Positions 50,764 to 56,936 of a DNA stretch of 64,000 nucleotides are shown here, piece after piece. Location of the stretch: NCBI GenBank assembly GCA_002928965.1, contig PERU01000019.1, positions 1 to 64,000 of the forward strand, given 5' to 3'. Under the pieces are notes generated by a model, which saw nothing but the letters and a program-made list of their open reading frames with translations, did not search any database and was not told the DNA's origin. The first letter of the stretch is position 1, and each line of letters starts with the position of its first letter. This stretch comes from Methylomonas sp. Lineage in GTDB: Bacteria > Pseudomonadota > Gammaproteobacteria > Methylococcales > Methylomonadaceae. Both the position numbers and the translations under genes were made by a program.

Positions 50764-51972
50764 ATCATCGAAAAGCGAATTTTATTAGGCGTTTGCGGCG
50801 GTATTGCCGCTTACAAATCCGCAGAACTGGTGCGACTGTTGCGCAAACAAGGCTGCCAGATACGGGTGGTCATGACGACCTCAGCGCAGCAATTTGTAAC
50901 GCCATTGACTTTTCAAGCCTTGAGCGGTCACCCGGTGCACACAGCATTATTCGATGCCGCGCAAGAACAAGCCATGGGGCATATTCATCTGGCACGCTGG
51001 GCCGATTTGCTGCTAATTGCGCCAGCCAGCGCCAATACCCTAGCCAAAATGGCCAACGGCTTGGCTGACGACTTGTTGTCCACACTGTATCTGGCCAGCG
51101 AATGCCCGGTGTATGTCGCACCAGCCATGAATCAAGCGATGTGGCATAAGGCTGCAACTCAGGACAATATGCGCCGATTACAGCAACATAACGTTAGCGT
51201 GATTGGTCCGGCAATTGGGCAGCAGGCTTGCGGCGAACAGGGTTTCGGTCGGATGAGTGAACCCGCAGATATTTGCCAACACCTGCTAGCCGATCACAAA
51301 CCGAAACCCATGCAGGGCATCAAACTACTGATTAGCGCCGGCCCAACCCGCGAGCCACTTGATCCGGTTCGTTACATTACCAACCGCAGCTCCGGCAAAA
51401 TGGGCTATGCAATTGCCACTGCGGCCAAGCAGGCGGGTGCTCTGGTAACCTTGGTAAGCGGACCGGTCAACATTCCCGAACCGGCCGAGGTGAATATTGT
51501 TAAGGTAGAAACGGCAGATCAAATGTATTCGGCAGTTATGCAGCGCGCCGAGCAGCATGACATTTATATTGGGGCGGCGGCCGTAGCCGATTATCGTCCT
51601 GCAGTGTTGCAAGATCATAAAATCAAAAAGCAACACGATCACAGCGTGATTGAATTAACTAAAAACCCGGACATTATTGGCAGCGTTGCCAGCTTACCCT
51701 CCAAGCCCTTCGTGGTGGGTTTTGCTGCAGAAACTAACGATCTGGAAAATTACGCCATACTTAAACTGCAAACCAAAAATCTGGACATAATTGCCGCCAA
51801 TTGGGTGGGGCAAACCGAAGGCGGTTTCGATAGCGAGCGTAATGCCTTACAGGTGTTTTGGCCCGATGGTAATAAACAATTTGCCATGACCGACAAATCA
51901 ACATTGGCTCAACAACTATTGAGTTTAATCACCGAGAAATTCCATGAAAAAAATCCAGCTAAAAATTCTTGA
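50764..51972 (+). CDS. coaBC: Bifunctional phosphopantothenoylcysteine synthetase/decarboxylase
   Basis: Two steps of coenzyme A synthesis. The N-terminal flavoprotein CoaC (about 1-185) has [16 protein letters not shown], the PAMNQAMW substrate motif and the catalytic Cys in [10 protein letters not shown]. The CoaB part has [25 protein letters not shown] and AAVADYRP. The coding homology begins at [12 protein letters not shown] (from about 50767), but the frame contains no ATG, GTG or TTG between the TGA at 50749 and there. The ATG at 50759 is in another frame. Either a non-canonical ATC start or a 1-nt error is implied; the ATG at 50830 would remove the nucleotide-binding loop. It overlaps dut by 29 bp. 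Confidence 0.85.
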
Positions 51973-52399
51973 TCCGCGACTTGGGAACGAGATTGCCTTA
52001 CCCAGCTATGCGACTGACGGTTCGGCAGGACTGGATTTGCGAGCTTGTCTGGACCAAGCCATAACGTTACAACCGGGTGAATCGCAGCTGATTCCCACTG
52101 GCTTGGCCATTCACATCGCTGATCCGCATCTGGCTGCGGTATTGTTACCTCGCTCCGGCCTCGGTCACAAACATGGGATTGTCTTAGGCAATCTGGTGGG
52201 GCTGATAGACTCGGATTATCAAGGCCAAGTGTTTGTTTCCTGCTGGAATCGCAGCGATAACGCCTTTACCATCGAAATTGGTGAACGTATCGCACAAATG
52301 GTGTTCGTACCGGTGGTACAGGCCGAATTTGAATGTGTGACTGAATTTGATCAATCTCAGCGTGGTAGCGGTGGCTTTGGTCACAGCGGACGCCATTAA
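51944..52399 (+). CDS. dut: dUTP diphosphatase
   Basis: Hydrolyses dUTP to dUMP, keeping uracil out of DNA and feeding thymidylate synthesis. The 151-residue trimeric enzyme shows all five motifs: [35 protein letters not shown], [16 protein letters not shown] [11 protein letters not shown] and the terminal [10 protein letters not shown]. It overlaps coaBC by 29 bp and precedes the PMM/PGM-like gene by 19 bp, the common coaBC-dut-algC order. Confidence 0.96.
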
Positions 52400-52418: not shown

Positions 52419-55049
52419 ATGGGACGTATTTTTGCCATCATAGCGGCAATTTCGGCCAGCATGGTTTTTCTGGCAGGCGGCAGCGCTTACTGGTTTTCTG
52501 CTGCCGACGCCAAAAGTGCCAAACAGGAAGCTATCACGCTGATTGCAAACAACCTTGCCGCCAATTTGTCCATGCAATTGAGTACGCTGCAGACCAGCGT
52601 CGACGGCTTGGCACAATCACCTGATGTGATAGCCGCTTTAACTTCCGGCAATCCGGAACTGATCAAAGCAACTGCTGCAAAATTACAAACACTGGTACCC
52701 CATAGTTTAAGGATACGTCTGTTGCTACCTGATGTGAACGATCTCGACCAGTCGCAAGCCCCTCACATGGGCTTTGGCGATTTGGAAATGATCAAAACCA
52801 CCTTAACCGGCAAGCCTCAGCCAGTCATTCAAGGAGATGCTGAGCATAGGCATCTGGCCATTACCAGTGCGGTGTTGCTCGATCAAAAAGTCATTGGCGT
52901 GGTTTTGGCCAGCCTAAAACCCAATCTGTTACAGCCAATTATCAGCAATACCCCCATTCAAAACGGCTTTATCGAACTTAAACAAGACCAATTGTCGTTG
53001 GCAAGTGCGGGACAAGCTGAACATGGCTCCGATGAGCCAATCTCCGTTCCGGTGCAAAACAGTCGCTGGCAACTCAATGTGTGGGCAAATGTTGGAACCA
53101 GCATGATGGATATGGGGATTTTGCTGGCGTTGATTGTGATTCCAGCCTTGCTTGCCTGTCTGGCGTTTTTTGTCGGCTACCGTAAATTCAGTGACTTTTT
53201 CCGCCAAGATCAAAGCGGCATTCTGAAAGCCGCCAAAGACATGTTGCAAGGTAAAACCATGGGCAGCTATCCCATGCAACTGCCCGAGATGCAACCGATT
53301 ATTGCGGCCATGGTGCAATTCAAGCGGGTTATGGACAAATCGGGGGCGCCGTCTGCTGAAAGTCATCAAGATGATGGCCACGACTTTTTTGAAGAATCGT
53401 TTGACATCGATTTCCTGGAAGACACCTCGCCAGTCCATACCGAAAGTTTTCAAACCAGTTCCATCAGCATCCCCAGTACAGCGGTCTCTATGCCTAGTTT
53501 TGCTGACATGGAAACCGTTTTACAAGAACCGGGACACAATAGCAGCAGTGACTGGCAAACCGATGATTTGGCAGAAACCATTCAAATCGGCTCCCCCACG
53601 TCGAATAATTGGAGCCATGACAGTGGCTCACATGCCATTTCAACGCCGACTGTGCCACCCGTTAACCAACAACCCCCAGCAGTTTCGATATTTCGGGAAT
53701 TCGACATTCTGGGTGTGGCCGGCAGCAACCTGACTGACCAGATCATGGCAAATATCGGCCGGGCGTTTGCCAGTGAGGCGCGGCAACAGCAGATCAAAAC
53801 CATTGTGGTCGCGCGCGATGGCCGCTTATCCAGCCCTGCATTAGCAGAGGCACTGATTAAAGGCATTATCTCGACCGGCTGCGATGTGTTGGATATTGGC
53901 TTGGTGCCAACCCCGGTGCTGTATTTTGTCAGCCATCACAGTGAAGGCCGCACCGGTGTTATGGTGACAGGCGGCAACCAGCCTGCCGAGTTTAACGGTT
54001 TAAAATTCATTTTGAATGATGACATGTTGTCGAGCACGCAGATTCAACACCTGAAAACTCGCGTTGACGAGCAGTTTTACACGCAAGAGCAAAGCGGCTC
54101 CATCGACCGTAATACATTATTCAGTAATGAATATATCGGCATCATTTCCGAAGACATCCACATTGTGCGCCCGATGACGGTGGTCATCGACAGTAGTAAC
54201 GGCGCGACCGGTCAATTGGGGCCGATGCTGTTAAAAACCATCGGTTGCGACGTGGTGGAATTAAATTGCGAGATTGATGGCCGCTTTCCAAACCATCCCC
54301 CCGAACTCAGTCACCCTGGTAACCTTGAGGCTCTGATTAAGGCCGTTAAATTGAATAATGCCGACTTAGGCATGGCTTTTGACGGTGATGGGGAACGCCT
54401 GCTGCTGGTAGACTCCAGTGGTCGGATAGTTTTGGCTGATAAACAAATGATGCTGTTTGCCCGTGATGTGCTGGCCATCAAACCCGGCACCGAAGTGATT
54501 TATGACGCGGCCTGTTCCAGCCATCTCCCGGAACAAATCAAAAAACGTGGCGGCTTTCCGGTGTTATGTAAAAGTGGTGTCACGCCACTGCACAGTCGGC
54601 TACGGGAAACCGGCGCAACATTGGCTTGCGATTTAAGCGGGCACTTTTTGTTTAATGATCGCTGGTTAGGATTTAATGATGCCTTGTATGCAGCCGTGCG
54701 CATGATCGAAATTCTTTCAGCAGATATGCGCTCCAGCAGCGCTTTGTTTGATGAATTGCCGGACAGCATCAATACTCCCGAGTTGCGCATCCCCATGAAC
54801 GACAGCGAAAGTCGCCGCTTTATAGAACAATTTTTTAGCCTGGCCGACTTCCCCGATGGCGATAGCGTCAATGTGGACGGCATGCGCGTGGAGTTTCCGG
54901 ATGGCTGGGGACTGATCAAAGCGTCCAATGCCCTGGCGGGCCTGAGCATGCGTTTTGAGGCTGACACGCCCGAAGCACTAAGCCGTATCCAGACACAATT
55001 CAAACAGCTTATGCTGCAAATCAATCCAGAGCTATCCATTCCTTTTTAA
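52419..55049 (+). CDS. Membrane-anchored phosphomannomutase/phosphoglucomutase-like protein lacking the catalytic serine
   Basis: An 876-residue protein in the position of algC. The N terminus has two membrane helices (about 4-24 and 229-253) flanking an extracytoplasmic sensor-like domain, then a Ser/Pro-rich linker to about 420. The mutase body follows. The phosphoserine loop TGSHNP is replaced by T517-G-G-N-Q-P, so the phospho-acceptor Ser is Gly519. The metal loop is DGDGER (655-660), the sugar loop CDLSGH (737-742) in place of GEMSGH, and the phosphate loop KASN (834-837) in place of RASN. It may be a pseudoenzyme with a sensory or scaffolding role. argB follows 12 bp later. Confidence 0.82.
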   Translation: MGRIFAIIAAISASMVFLAGGSAYWFSAADAKSAKQEAITLIANNLAANLSMQLSTLQTSVDGLAQSPDVIAALTSGNPELIKATAAKLQTLVPHSLRIRLLLPDVNDLDQSQAPHMGFGDLEMIKTTLTGKPQPVIQGDAEHRHLAITSAVLLDQKVIGVVLASLKPNLLQPIISNTPIQNGFIELKQDQLSLASAGQAEHGSDEPISVPVQNSRWQLNVWANVGTSMMDMGILLALIVIPALLACLAFFVGYRKFSDFFRQDQSGILKAAKDMLQGKTMGSYPMQLPEMQPIIAAMVQFKRVMDKSGAPSAESHQDDGHDFFEESFDIDFLEDTSPVHTESFQTSSISIPSTAVSMPSFADMETVLQEPGHNSSSDWQTDDLAETIQIGSPTSNNWSHDSGSHAISTPTVPPVNQQPPAVSIFREFDILGVAGSNLTDQIMANIGRAFASEARQQQIKTIVVARDGRLSSPALAEALIKGIISTGCDVLDIGLVPTPVLYFVSHHSEGRTGVMVTGGNQPAEFNGLKFILNDDMLSSTQIQHLKTRVDEQFYTQEQSGSIDRNTLFSNEYIGIISEDIHIVRPMTVVIDSSNGATGQLGPMLLKTIGCDVVELNCEIDGRFPNHPPELSHPGNLEALIKAVKLNNADLGMAFDGDGERLLLVDSSGRIVLADKQMMLFARDVLAIKPGTEVIYDAACSSHLPEQIKKRGGFPVLCKSGVTPLHSRLRETGATLACDLSGHFLFNDRWLGFNDALYAAVRMIEILSADMRSSSALFDELPDSINTPELRIPMNDSESRRFIEQFFSLADFPDGDSVNVDGMRVEFPDGWGLIKASNALAGLSMRFEADTPEALSRIQTQFKQLMLQINPELSIPF

Positions 55050-56936
<1,887 letters not shown>

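Follow-up and report, generated by a model that had tools for sequence, protein, structure and literature searches.

Positions 52,419 to 55,049 of a 64,000-nucleotide stretch of Methylomonas sp. DNA (contig PERU01000019.1 of GenBank assembly GCA_002928965.1; this whole stretch is hereafter the window) hold a gene for an 876-amino-acid (aa) protein in which a membrane sensor-like half precedes a half homologous to the phosphomannomutase/phosphoglucomutase (PMM/PGM) AlgC of Pseudomonas aeruginosa. Its active site is broken, and we lean, with reserve, toward the reading that one Methylomonas group has kept this pseudo-phosphomutase for contact with another protein, or as a scaffold, attached to a membrane sensor. 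A preliminary description of the locus had placed the gene in the algC position, and it does lie between dut and argB, names that are assigned from the sequences and the conserved gene order (Table 1). The gene preceding dut we take to be coaBC, and algC of Pseudomonas presumably has a like placement beside argB and dut. Judged by sequence and position, the window open reading frame (ORF) is an orthologue of the membrane-anchored "long" AlgC proteins, which combine a membrane half and a mutase half in the dut-argB slot.

Table 1. Features of the pseudo-phosphomutase gene and its neighbours in the window
Feature	Positions	Strand	Basis or remark
Whole ORF, 876 aa: membrane sensor domain, linker and pseudo-phosphomutase	52419..55049	+	single open frame
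dut, 5' neighbour	51944..52399	+	named by its sequence and the conserved gene order
argB, 3' neighbour	55062..55955	+	named by its sequence and the conserved gene order
First membrane helix, about aa 4-26	52428..52496	+	hydrophobic stretch by eye; model helix 2-65
Predicted periplasmic dCache-type sensor domain, aa 28-227	52500..53099	+	VIA-align Z 16.2 to KinD 4jgq_A
Second membrane helix, about aa 230-254	53106..53180	+	hydrophobic stretch by eye; model helix 229-276
Disordered acidic linker, aa 307-421	53337..53681	+	pLDDT <50
Linker motif DFFEESFDIDF, aa 322-332	53382..53414	+	loose pattern match
Pseudo-phosphomutase domain, aa 423-876	53685..55046	+	Foldseek to 2fkm; PDB sequence match E 5.4e-126
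L431 at Arg20	53709..53711	+	alignment to P. aeruginosa PMM/PGM and relatives
TGGNQP, former phosphoserine loop TGSHNP, residues 517-522	53967..53984	+	Gly519 at catalytic Ser108; H109 to N520, N110 to Q521
DGDGER, altered Mg loop (DGDGDR in most relatives)	54381..54398	+	third Asp, D246, to Glu659
A698 at Lys285	54510..54512	+	Ala in 10/10 broken members
V721 at His308	54579..54581	+	lost in 10/10 broken members
D738 at Glu325	54630..54632	+	Glu lost in 10/10 broken members; Asp in 8
K834 at Arg421	54918..54920	+	Lys in window only; Arg in other nine broken members

Residues 421 to 876 align with P. aeruginosa PMM/PGM in a PDB sequence search (Table 1), and the Pfam phosphohexomutase domains I to III score above cut-off; domain IV, which Pfam matches in 26 of 28 family members, is not among the matches listed for the window protein. 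With NCBIfam PgmG the protein scores 378.7 bits, below the cut-off of 600, a miss that says little since intact relatives lay outside that scan. AlphaFold2 modeling with 28 family sequences gave a predicted local distance difference test score (pLDDT) of 80.9 for the whole protein, with the linker (residues 307 to 421) disordered. Foldseek superimposed the mutase model on P. aeruginosa PMM/PGM (PDB code 2fkm) with a TM-score of 0.97 on the target, a root-mean-square deviation (rmsd) of 1.3, and 43% identity; thus, the four-domain phosphohexomutase fold is predicted to be intact, and the fold of AlgC (PDB codes 1k35 and 2fkm) would extend over the whole C-terminal half. The solved P. aeruginosa chains (455 to 463 aa) are without an N-terminal membrane half, whereas the window protein has one.

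The preliminary description had also recognized a fused two-helix membrane region, and hydrophobic stretches picked out by eye together with the model helices bear this out. Modeled alone, the sensor half reached a pLDDT of 85.9, and VIA-align matched it over 184 residues (rmsd 3.2) to the sensor domain of KinD, as well as to DctB and PctA-type chemoreceptors. The Pfam dCache_1 profile finds the window protein at E = 2.6e-5 (24.3 bits, under the gathering cut-off of 45), and at E = 0.001 it matches 11 of the 28 family members. From the model matches, we describe the N-terminal half as a predicted periplasmic dCache-type sensor. Residues invariant in 16 sensor halves include Pro94, Pro115, Met117, Asp121, Gln138, Gly139, Arg144, and His145, and these may line a ligand pocket.

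Altered active sites in ten Methylomonas genomes

In comparison with P. aeruginosa AlgC, the window protein has replacements at the catalytic Ser, His109, Arg20, Lys285, His308, Glu325, and the third Mg-binding Asp, as well as at Y17 (F428) and T425 (A838), and the sugar loop GEMSGH reads CDLSGH. The preliminary description had rightly seen Gly in place of the phosphoserine, Asp738 in place of the sugar-loop Glu, and a Lys (Lys834) opening the phosphate loop; it had passed over the replaced positions R20, Y17, H109, N110, K285, H308, and T425. Its statement that the Mg loop is kept was mistaken, as Glu659 takes the place of the third Asp and the loop deviates from the D-x-D-x-D-R pattern found in P. 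aeruginosa PMM/PGM and in 40 of 41 intact relatives. Judging from these residues, phosphomutase activity has almost certainly been lost.

The fused gene is present in 29 of the 37 genomes of the genus, and in all 29, the active site was read: 19 are intact and ten, including that of the window, are broken. Beyond the genus, we read the 22 fused loci among the matches listed by a search of 201 family genomes, out of a larger family total. Across the 51 fused proteins compared, the Ser is present in all 41 outside the broken group, and 40 of them have every listed residue; in L054 (L and G numbers are our handles for loci and genomes, respectively), the Mg loop is two residues shorter in the alignment, with the active site otherwise intact. 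In 18 further loci from other gammaproteobacterial families (L075 to L092), the active-site residues covered are likewise intact, four of these loci (L081, L086, L088, and L092) ending before the last loops. These long AlgCs of Gammaproteobacteria share the architecture and length of the window protein. An N-terminal profile matches in 78 of 274 genomes of the class, and 66 of its 81 matches lie in open frames of >800 aa.

In the ten broken members, Lys285, His308, Glu325, and Asn110 are replaced throughout, Lys285 always by Ala, while at Ser108 six have Gly, one (L033) has Glu, and three (L007, L010, and L011) retain the Ser. Hence, the loss at the ligand contacts and sugar loop is common to the group, and that of the Ser is not; a Gly at this site, which the preliminary description had singled out for a survey of relatives, thus characterizes only part of it. 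One could suppose that the group has adopted an altered chemistry or specificity or keeps a residual activity without the phosphoserine. Consistent with this, Lys529 (K118) is kept in nine of the ten and His742 (H329) in eight, the change of Lys285 to Ala is common to all ten and that of Glu to Asp to eight, and an excerpt of PMC3369874 gives the P. aeruginosa K285A variant 10% of kcat/Km. Nevertheless, members of the group differ from one another at the Ser, at His109, and in the Mg and phosphate loops, and apart from shared replacements at Ala698 and Asp738 (with further swaps at 724, 727, 744, and 760), no new active-site pattern was found across the ten members; we regard such an enzyme as very improbable.

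The assembly behind the window is a draft in 85 contigs, which could invite the suspicion of a sequencing or assembly error. We rejected this explanation, which has a negligible probability: nine further genomes of the genus have broken active sites, the substitutions are many and different, the frames are open, and the 41 other long AlgCs all keep the Ser. Moreover, five of the ten recur with the same residues as named records in another collection; the named records apparently among the ten are Methylomonas sp. SURF-2, M. lenta R-45370, and Methylomonas sp. BC.006, WSC-6, and STC_4, and it is from these five that the genus compared here takes its name.

All ten broken genes sit between dut and argB. 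A single branch separates them from the other proteins both in the tree of the N-terminal half (support 99/98) and in that of the C-terminal half (100/100). Two members, L015 and L033, are very divergent with long branches, owing to which the midpoint root of the C-terminal tree lands inside the ten; in a tree rooted with outgroups from other families, the seven broken members included form a group (98/92). An ArgB tree covering 32 of the 37 genus genomes groups the ten with two genomes that are devoid of the gene, G023 and G032, with moderate support (90/89), and the ten alone require two changes on it. Gene transfer was also considered; the slot is identical in all ten, the ArgB tree shows the above grouping, and a blastn search for a plasmid match returned none.

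Other phosphohexomutases and partial forms of the gene

The preliminary description had supposed that the true PMM/PGM would be found elsewhere in the genome. A search with PF02878 recovered four members, which are, besides the window gene, GlmM (L001, above the NCBIfam glmM cut-off and following an ftsH-like gene), a 546-aa PGM (L002, above the NCBIfam PRK07564 cut-off), and, as the second PMM/PGM sought, a 481-aa CpsG-like PMM with TGSH and DGDGDR motifs (L004). The last falls below every NCBIfam cut-off and matches a solved Brucella protein (PDB code 4hjh; E = 2.3e-120) that is labeled both phosphomannomutase and phosphoglucomutase. Since no mannose or exopolysaccharide gene was recognized among the neighbors of L004, which were checked by eye, we only infer that it is the working PMM of the genome; the supposition thus stood as to the existence of such members and is presumptive as to which of them does the work. 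Frames of the sizes of PGM and the CpsG-like PMM are present in all ten genomes with a broken gene and one of GlmM size in nine, the exception being G027 (78% complete); the CpsG-like PMM is backed by strong L004-type matches in six of the ten, these being the six that the search covered. As the 19 intact genomes of the genus also carry the CpsG-like frame, the PMM redundancy is probably older than the active-site loss.

The sensor half has matches in 138 of the 201 family genomes. In 28 of these genomes, belonging to six other genera, it stands alone in frames of 244 to 408 aa (a hand count among the matches listed). Here a mutase was scored as absent when nothing matched the window protein better than 1e-74, so that a weaker free-standing mutase is possible. 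The least sure of the 28 is G177, with a partial sensor match, and G121 has a stop at the end of the match. The count leaves out G142 (fragments); G124, G085, G106, G143, and G066 (split or interrupted); G053, G078, G117, G130, G150, and G158 (duplicates); and G054, G131, and G154 (a mutase piece or interrupted sensor elsewhere). Seven of the eight sensor-only loci that we read (L057 to L063 and L066) lie between a dut homologue and argB; the eighth, L061, has dut upstream, and no argB was recognized within the stretch read. In the outgroup-rooted tree, L061 groups with two fused genes, L035 (93/58) and L045 (100/99), and the loss of the mutase is therefore probably derived there. A strong L004-type PMM occurs in only three of the 28 genomes (G134, G180, and G200), and thus PMM redundancy fails to explain the loss of the mutase in the other 25. 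Further arrangements include apparent fission, with the sensor and mutase as separate neighboring ORFs (L064 in G106 and, by coordinates, G085 and G124), and a sensor-only copy beside the fused gene in six genomes of genus g18 (G078, where it precedes the fused gene at L065, and, by coordinates, G053, G117, G130, G150, and G158).

Within Methylomonas, the whole gene is absent from eight of the 37 genomes, three of which are only 81 to 83% complete. In the four inspected (G023, G032, G033, and G035; loci L118, L123, L124, and L125), dut adjoins argB, and these four are divided between two regions of the ArgB tree.

Selection on the mutase half and competing explanations

None of the ten broken ORFs contains a stop codon, whereas about 23 nonsense changes would be expected under neutrality between L006 and L007 alone by a crude count. 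Synonymous divergence (dS) is saturated in most pairs. In the unsaturated broken pairs, the ratios of nonsynonymous divergence (dN) to dS for the mutase half are 0.090/0.590 (L006-L007) and 0.129/0.697 (L006-L009), i.e., 0.15 to 0.19, and those of two intact pairs are 0.045/0.864 and 0.019/0.881. For the sensor half, the corresponding figures are 0.061/0.704 and 0.147/0.829 in broken pairs and 0.060/0.887 and 0.027/0.546 in intact pairs. In saturated pairs, the ratios of the mutase half overlap (about 0.05 to 0.13 in intact and 0.07 to 0.27 in broken pairs). By these codon comparisons, the mutase half is under purifying selection in the broken group.

We then considered the sites that are invariant, with at most one exception, among the 41 intact relatives. 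Across the ten genomes, 91 of 190 cells retain the residue at the 19 catalytic or ligand sites, compared with 1,271 of 1,560 cells at the remaining 156 invariant mutase sites. Sets of 19 sites drawn at random scored this low only 2 times in 20,000, a figure that measures the concentration of loss at the active site, as the ten genomes were picked for their broken active sites. For the nine ligand-contact sites, the count is 35 of 90 cells (6 of 20,000 draws as low), and for the nine chemistry sites, it is 56 of 90 (1,413 of 20,000); these are raw counts set side by side. The lists of catalytic, chemistry, and ligand-contact sites were drawn up after the P. aeruginosa literature, in part backed by the papers cited here.

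The pattern at the ligand contacts, where the loss is clearest, bears on the proposal of the preliminary description that the protein is a pseudoenzyme sensing cytoplasmic sugar phosphates. The first part of this proposal agrees with the broken active site, and the second was not borne out when the sites were split into chemistry and ligand contacts. Sensing by an inactive mutase has precedents: excerpts of PMC5509744 describe binding of glucose 6-phosphate, glucose 1-phosphate, and xylose 1-phosphate by the inactivated PMM/PGM S108C, those of PMC7761743 describe the vertebrate PGM5 as inactive with its substrate binding intact, and the fold of the window protein is predicted to be intact. Yet a protein that senses sugar phosphates would be expected to retain the residues that contact them, as PGM5 does according to the same excerpts, whereas in the broken group, Lys285, His308, and Glu325 are gone from every member and the phosphate loop differs from member to member. 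The PGM5-like combination of a dead site with conserved substrate-binding residues is thus not seen in these sequences, and we judge sugar-phosphate sensing improbable. As a sensor of small molecules, the predicted dCache-type domain in the periplasm is a better candidate than the mutase half.

The chief competing explanation holds the mutase half to be a relic in decay that persists only through its fusion to a still-selected sensor half. It gains from the substitutions that differ genome by genome and from the very divergent L015 and L033, and several observations that favor it also weigh against a retained module. The dN/dS of the mutase half in unsaturated broken pairs is about 3 to 8 times that of intact pairs (0.15 to 0.19 versus 0.02 to 0.05), which also fits slow decay. 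Full retention in all ten extends to 65 of the 175 invariant mutase sites, against 26 of 31 N-terminal sites, none of the latter being lost in more than three of the ten. The sensor-only forms in six other genera do without the mutase half, and the whole gene is missing from eight genomes of the genus, two of which the ArgB tree places beside the broken members. Two more points tell against the retained pseudoenzyme: the nine chemistry sites alone are not unusually poorly kept, and three broken members retain Ser108. On the other side, a relic sits poorly with ten ORFs free of stops and frameshifts, with dN/dS values still of 0.15 to 0.19, with the retention of most cells at noncatalytic invariant sites, and with the finding that the mutase half, although droppable elsewhere, is retained in all ten members here. 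Decay is therefore unlikely but a serious contender; we think it probable that some use maintains the mutase half, and we favor somewhat less firmly the specific reading of a contact or scaffold module.

Under this reading of a retained module, the ancestor would have been a membrane-anchored AlgC with a dCache-type sensor, two membrane helices, an acidic linker, and a PMM/PGM domain. Selection on catalysis and sugar-phosphate binding would have ceased because a second PMM covered the reaction. The mutase fold would then have been retained as a cytoplasmic module held at the membrane and touching another protein, perhaps via the mutase surface and the DFFEESFDIDF linker motif, with the periplasmic domain supplying the signal. 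A loose pattern recovers forms of the linker motif from every one of the 29 fused Methylomonas proteins, whether the active site is intact or broken (the L032 form being the weakest), and from none of the 22 fused proteins of other genera; we regard the motif as a candidate docking site. Several sensor-only proteins end in an acidic Phe-containing tail. A more elaborate and tentative version is a transmembrane receptor, in which the dCache domain shifts the position or shape of the pseudo-phosphomutase, which in turn controls a partner by direct contact. The partner would be, for example, an exopolysaccharide or cyclic-dinucleotide enzyme, and the intact long AlgCs would represent the ancestral sensor-coupled enzyme.

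Comparison with known systems and significance

Three known systems offer partial parallels. PGM5 (aciculin) presumably has no membrane sensor domain, unlike the window protein, and it keeps the Ser and substrate binding, whereas the window protein has lost the Ser and ligand contacts. Excerpts of PMC7761743 describe PGM5 as an inactive phosphohexomutase that is a structural muscle protein of vertebrates. GlmM, according to excerpts of PMC8573169, inhibits the membrane c-di-AMP (cyclic di-AMP) cyclase CdaA/DacA by binding it; a phosphosugar mutase fold contacting a membrane signaling protein is a precedent for the proposed role, with the difference that GlmM is a separate protein and an enzyme, whereas the window mutase fold is very probably dead and is fused to the membrane protein. 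The dCache domains of KinD, DctB, and PctA have the same periplasmic fold as the window model, but their output is a kinase or chemoreceptor domain, in place of which the window protein has what appears to be a dead metabolic enzyme fold. We met no prior description of this protein in our searches of the open-license PubMed Central literature, a scope outside which most subscription papers lie; excerpts of PMC10355033 name a Methylomonas pmmM gene and do not say which gene is meant.

Annotation by overall similarity could label the window protein a working phosphomannomutase. For the long AlgCs in general, the locus raises the questions of what the membrane sensor half senses and whether it controls the enzyme. 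At one locus in one family, the enzyme-sensor fusion is found apparently active, dead, split, reduced to the sensor, and wholly deleted, and these many states make it a natural experiment on how metabolic enzymes turn into signaling parts.

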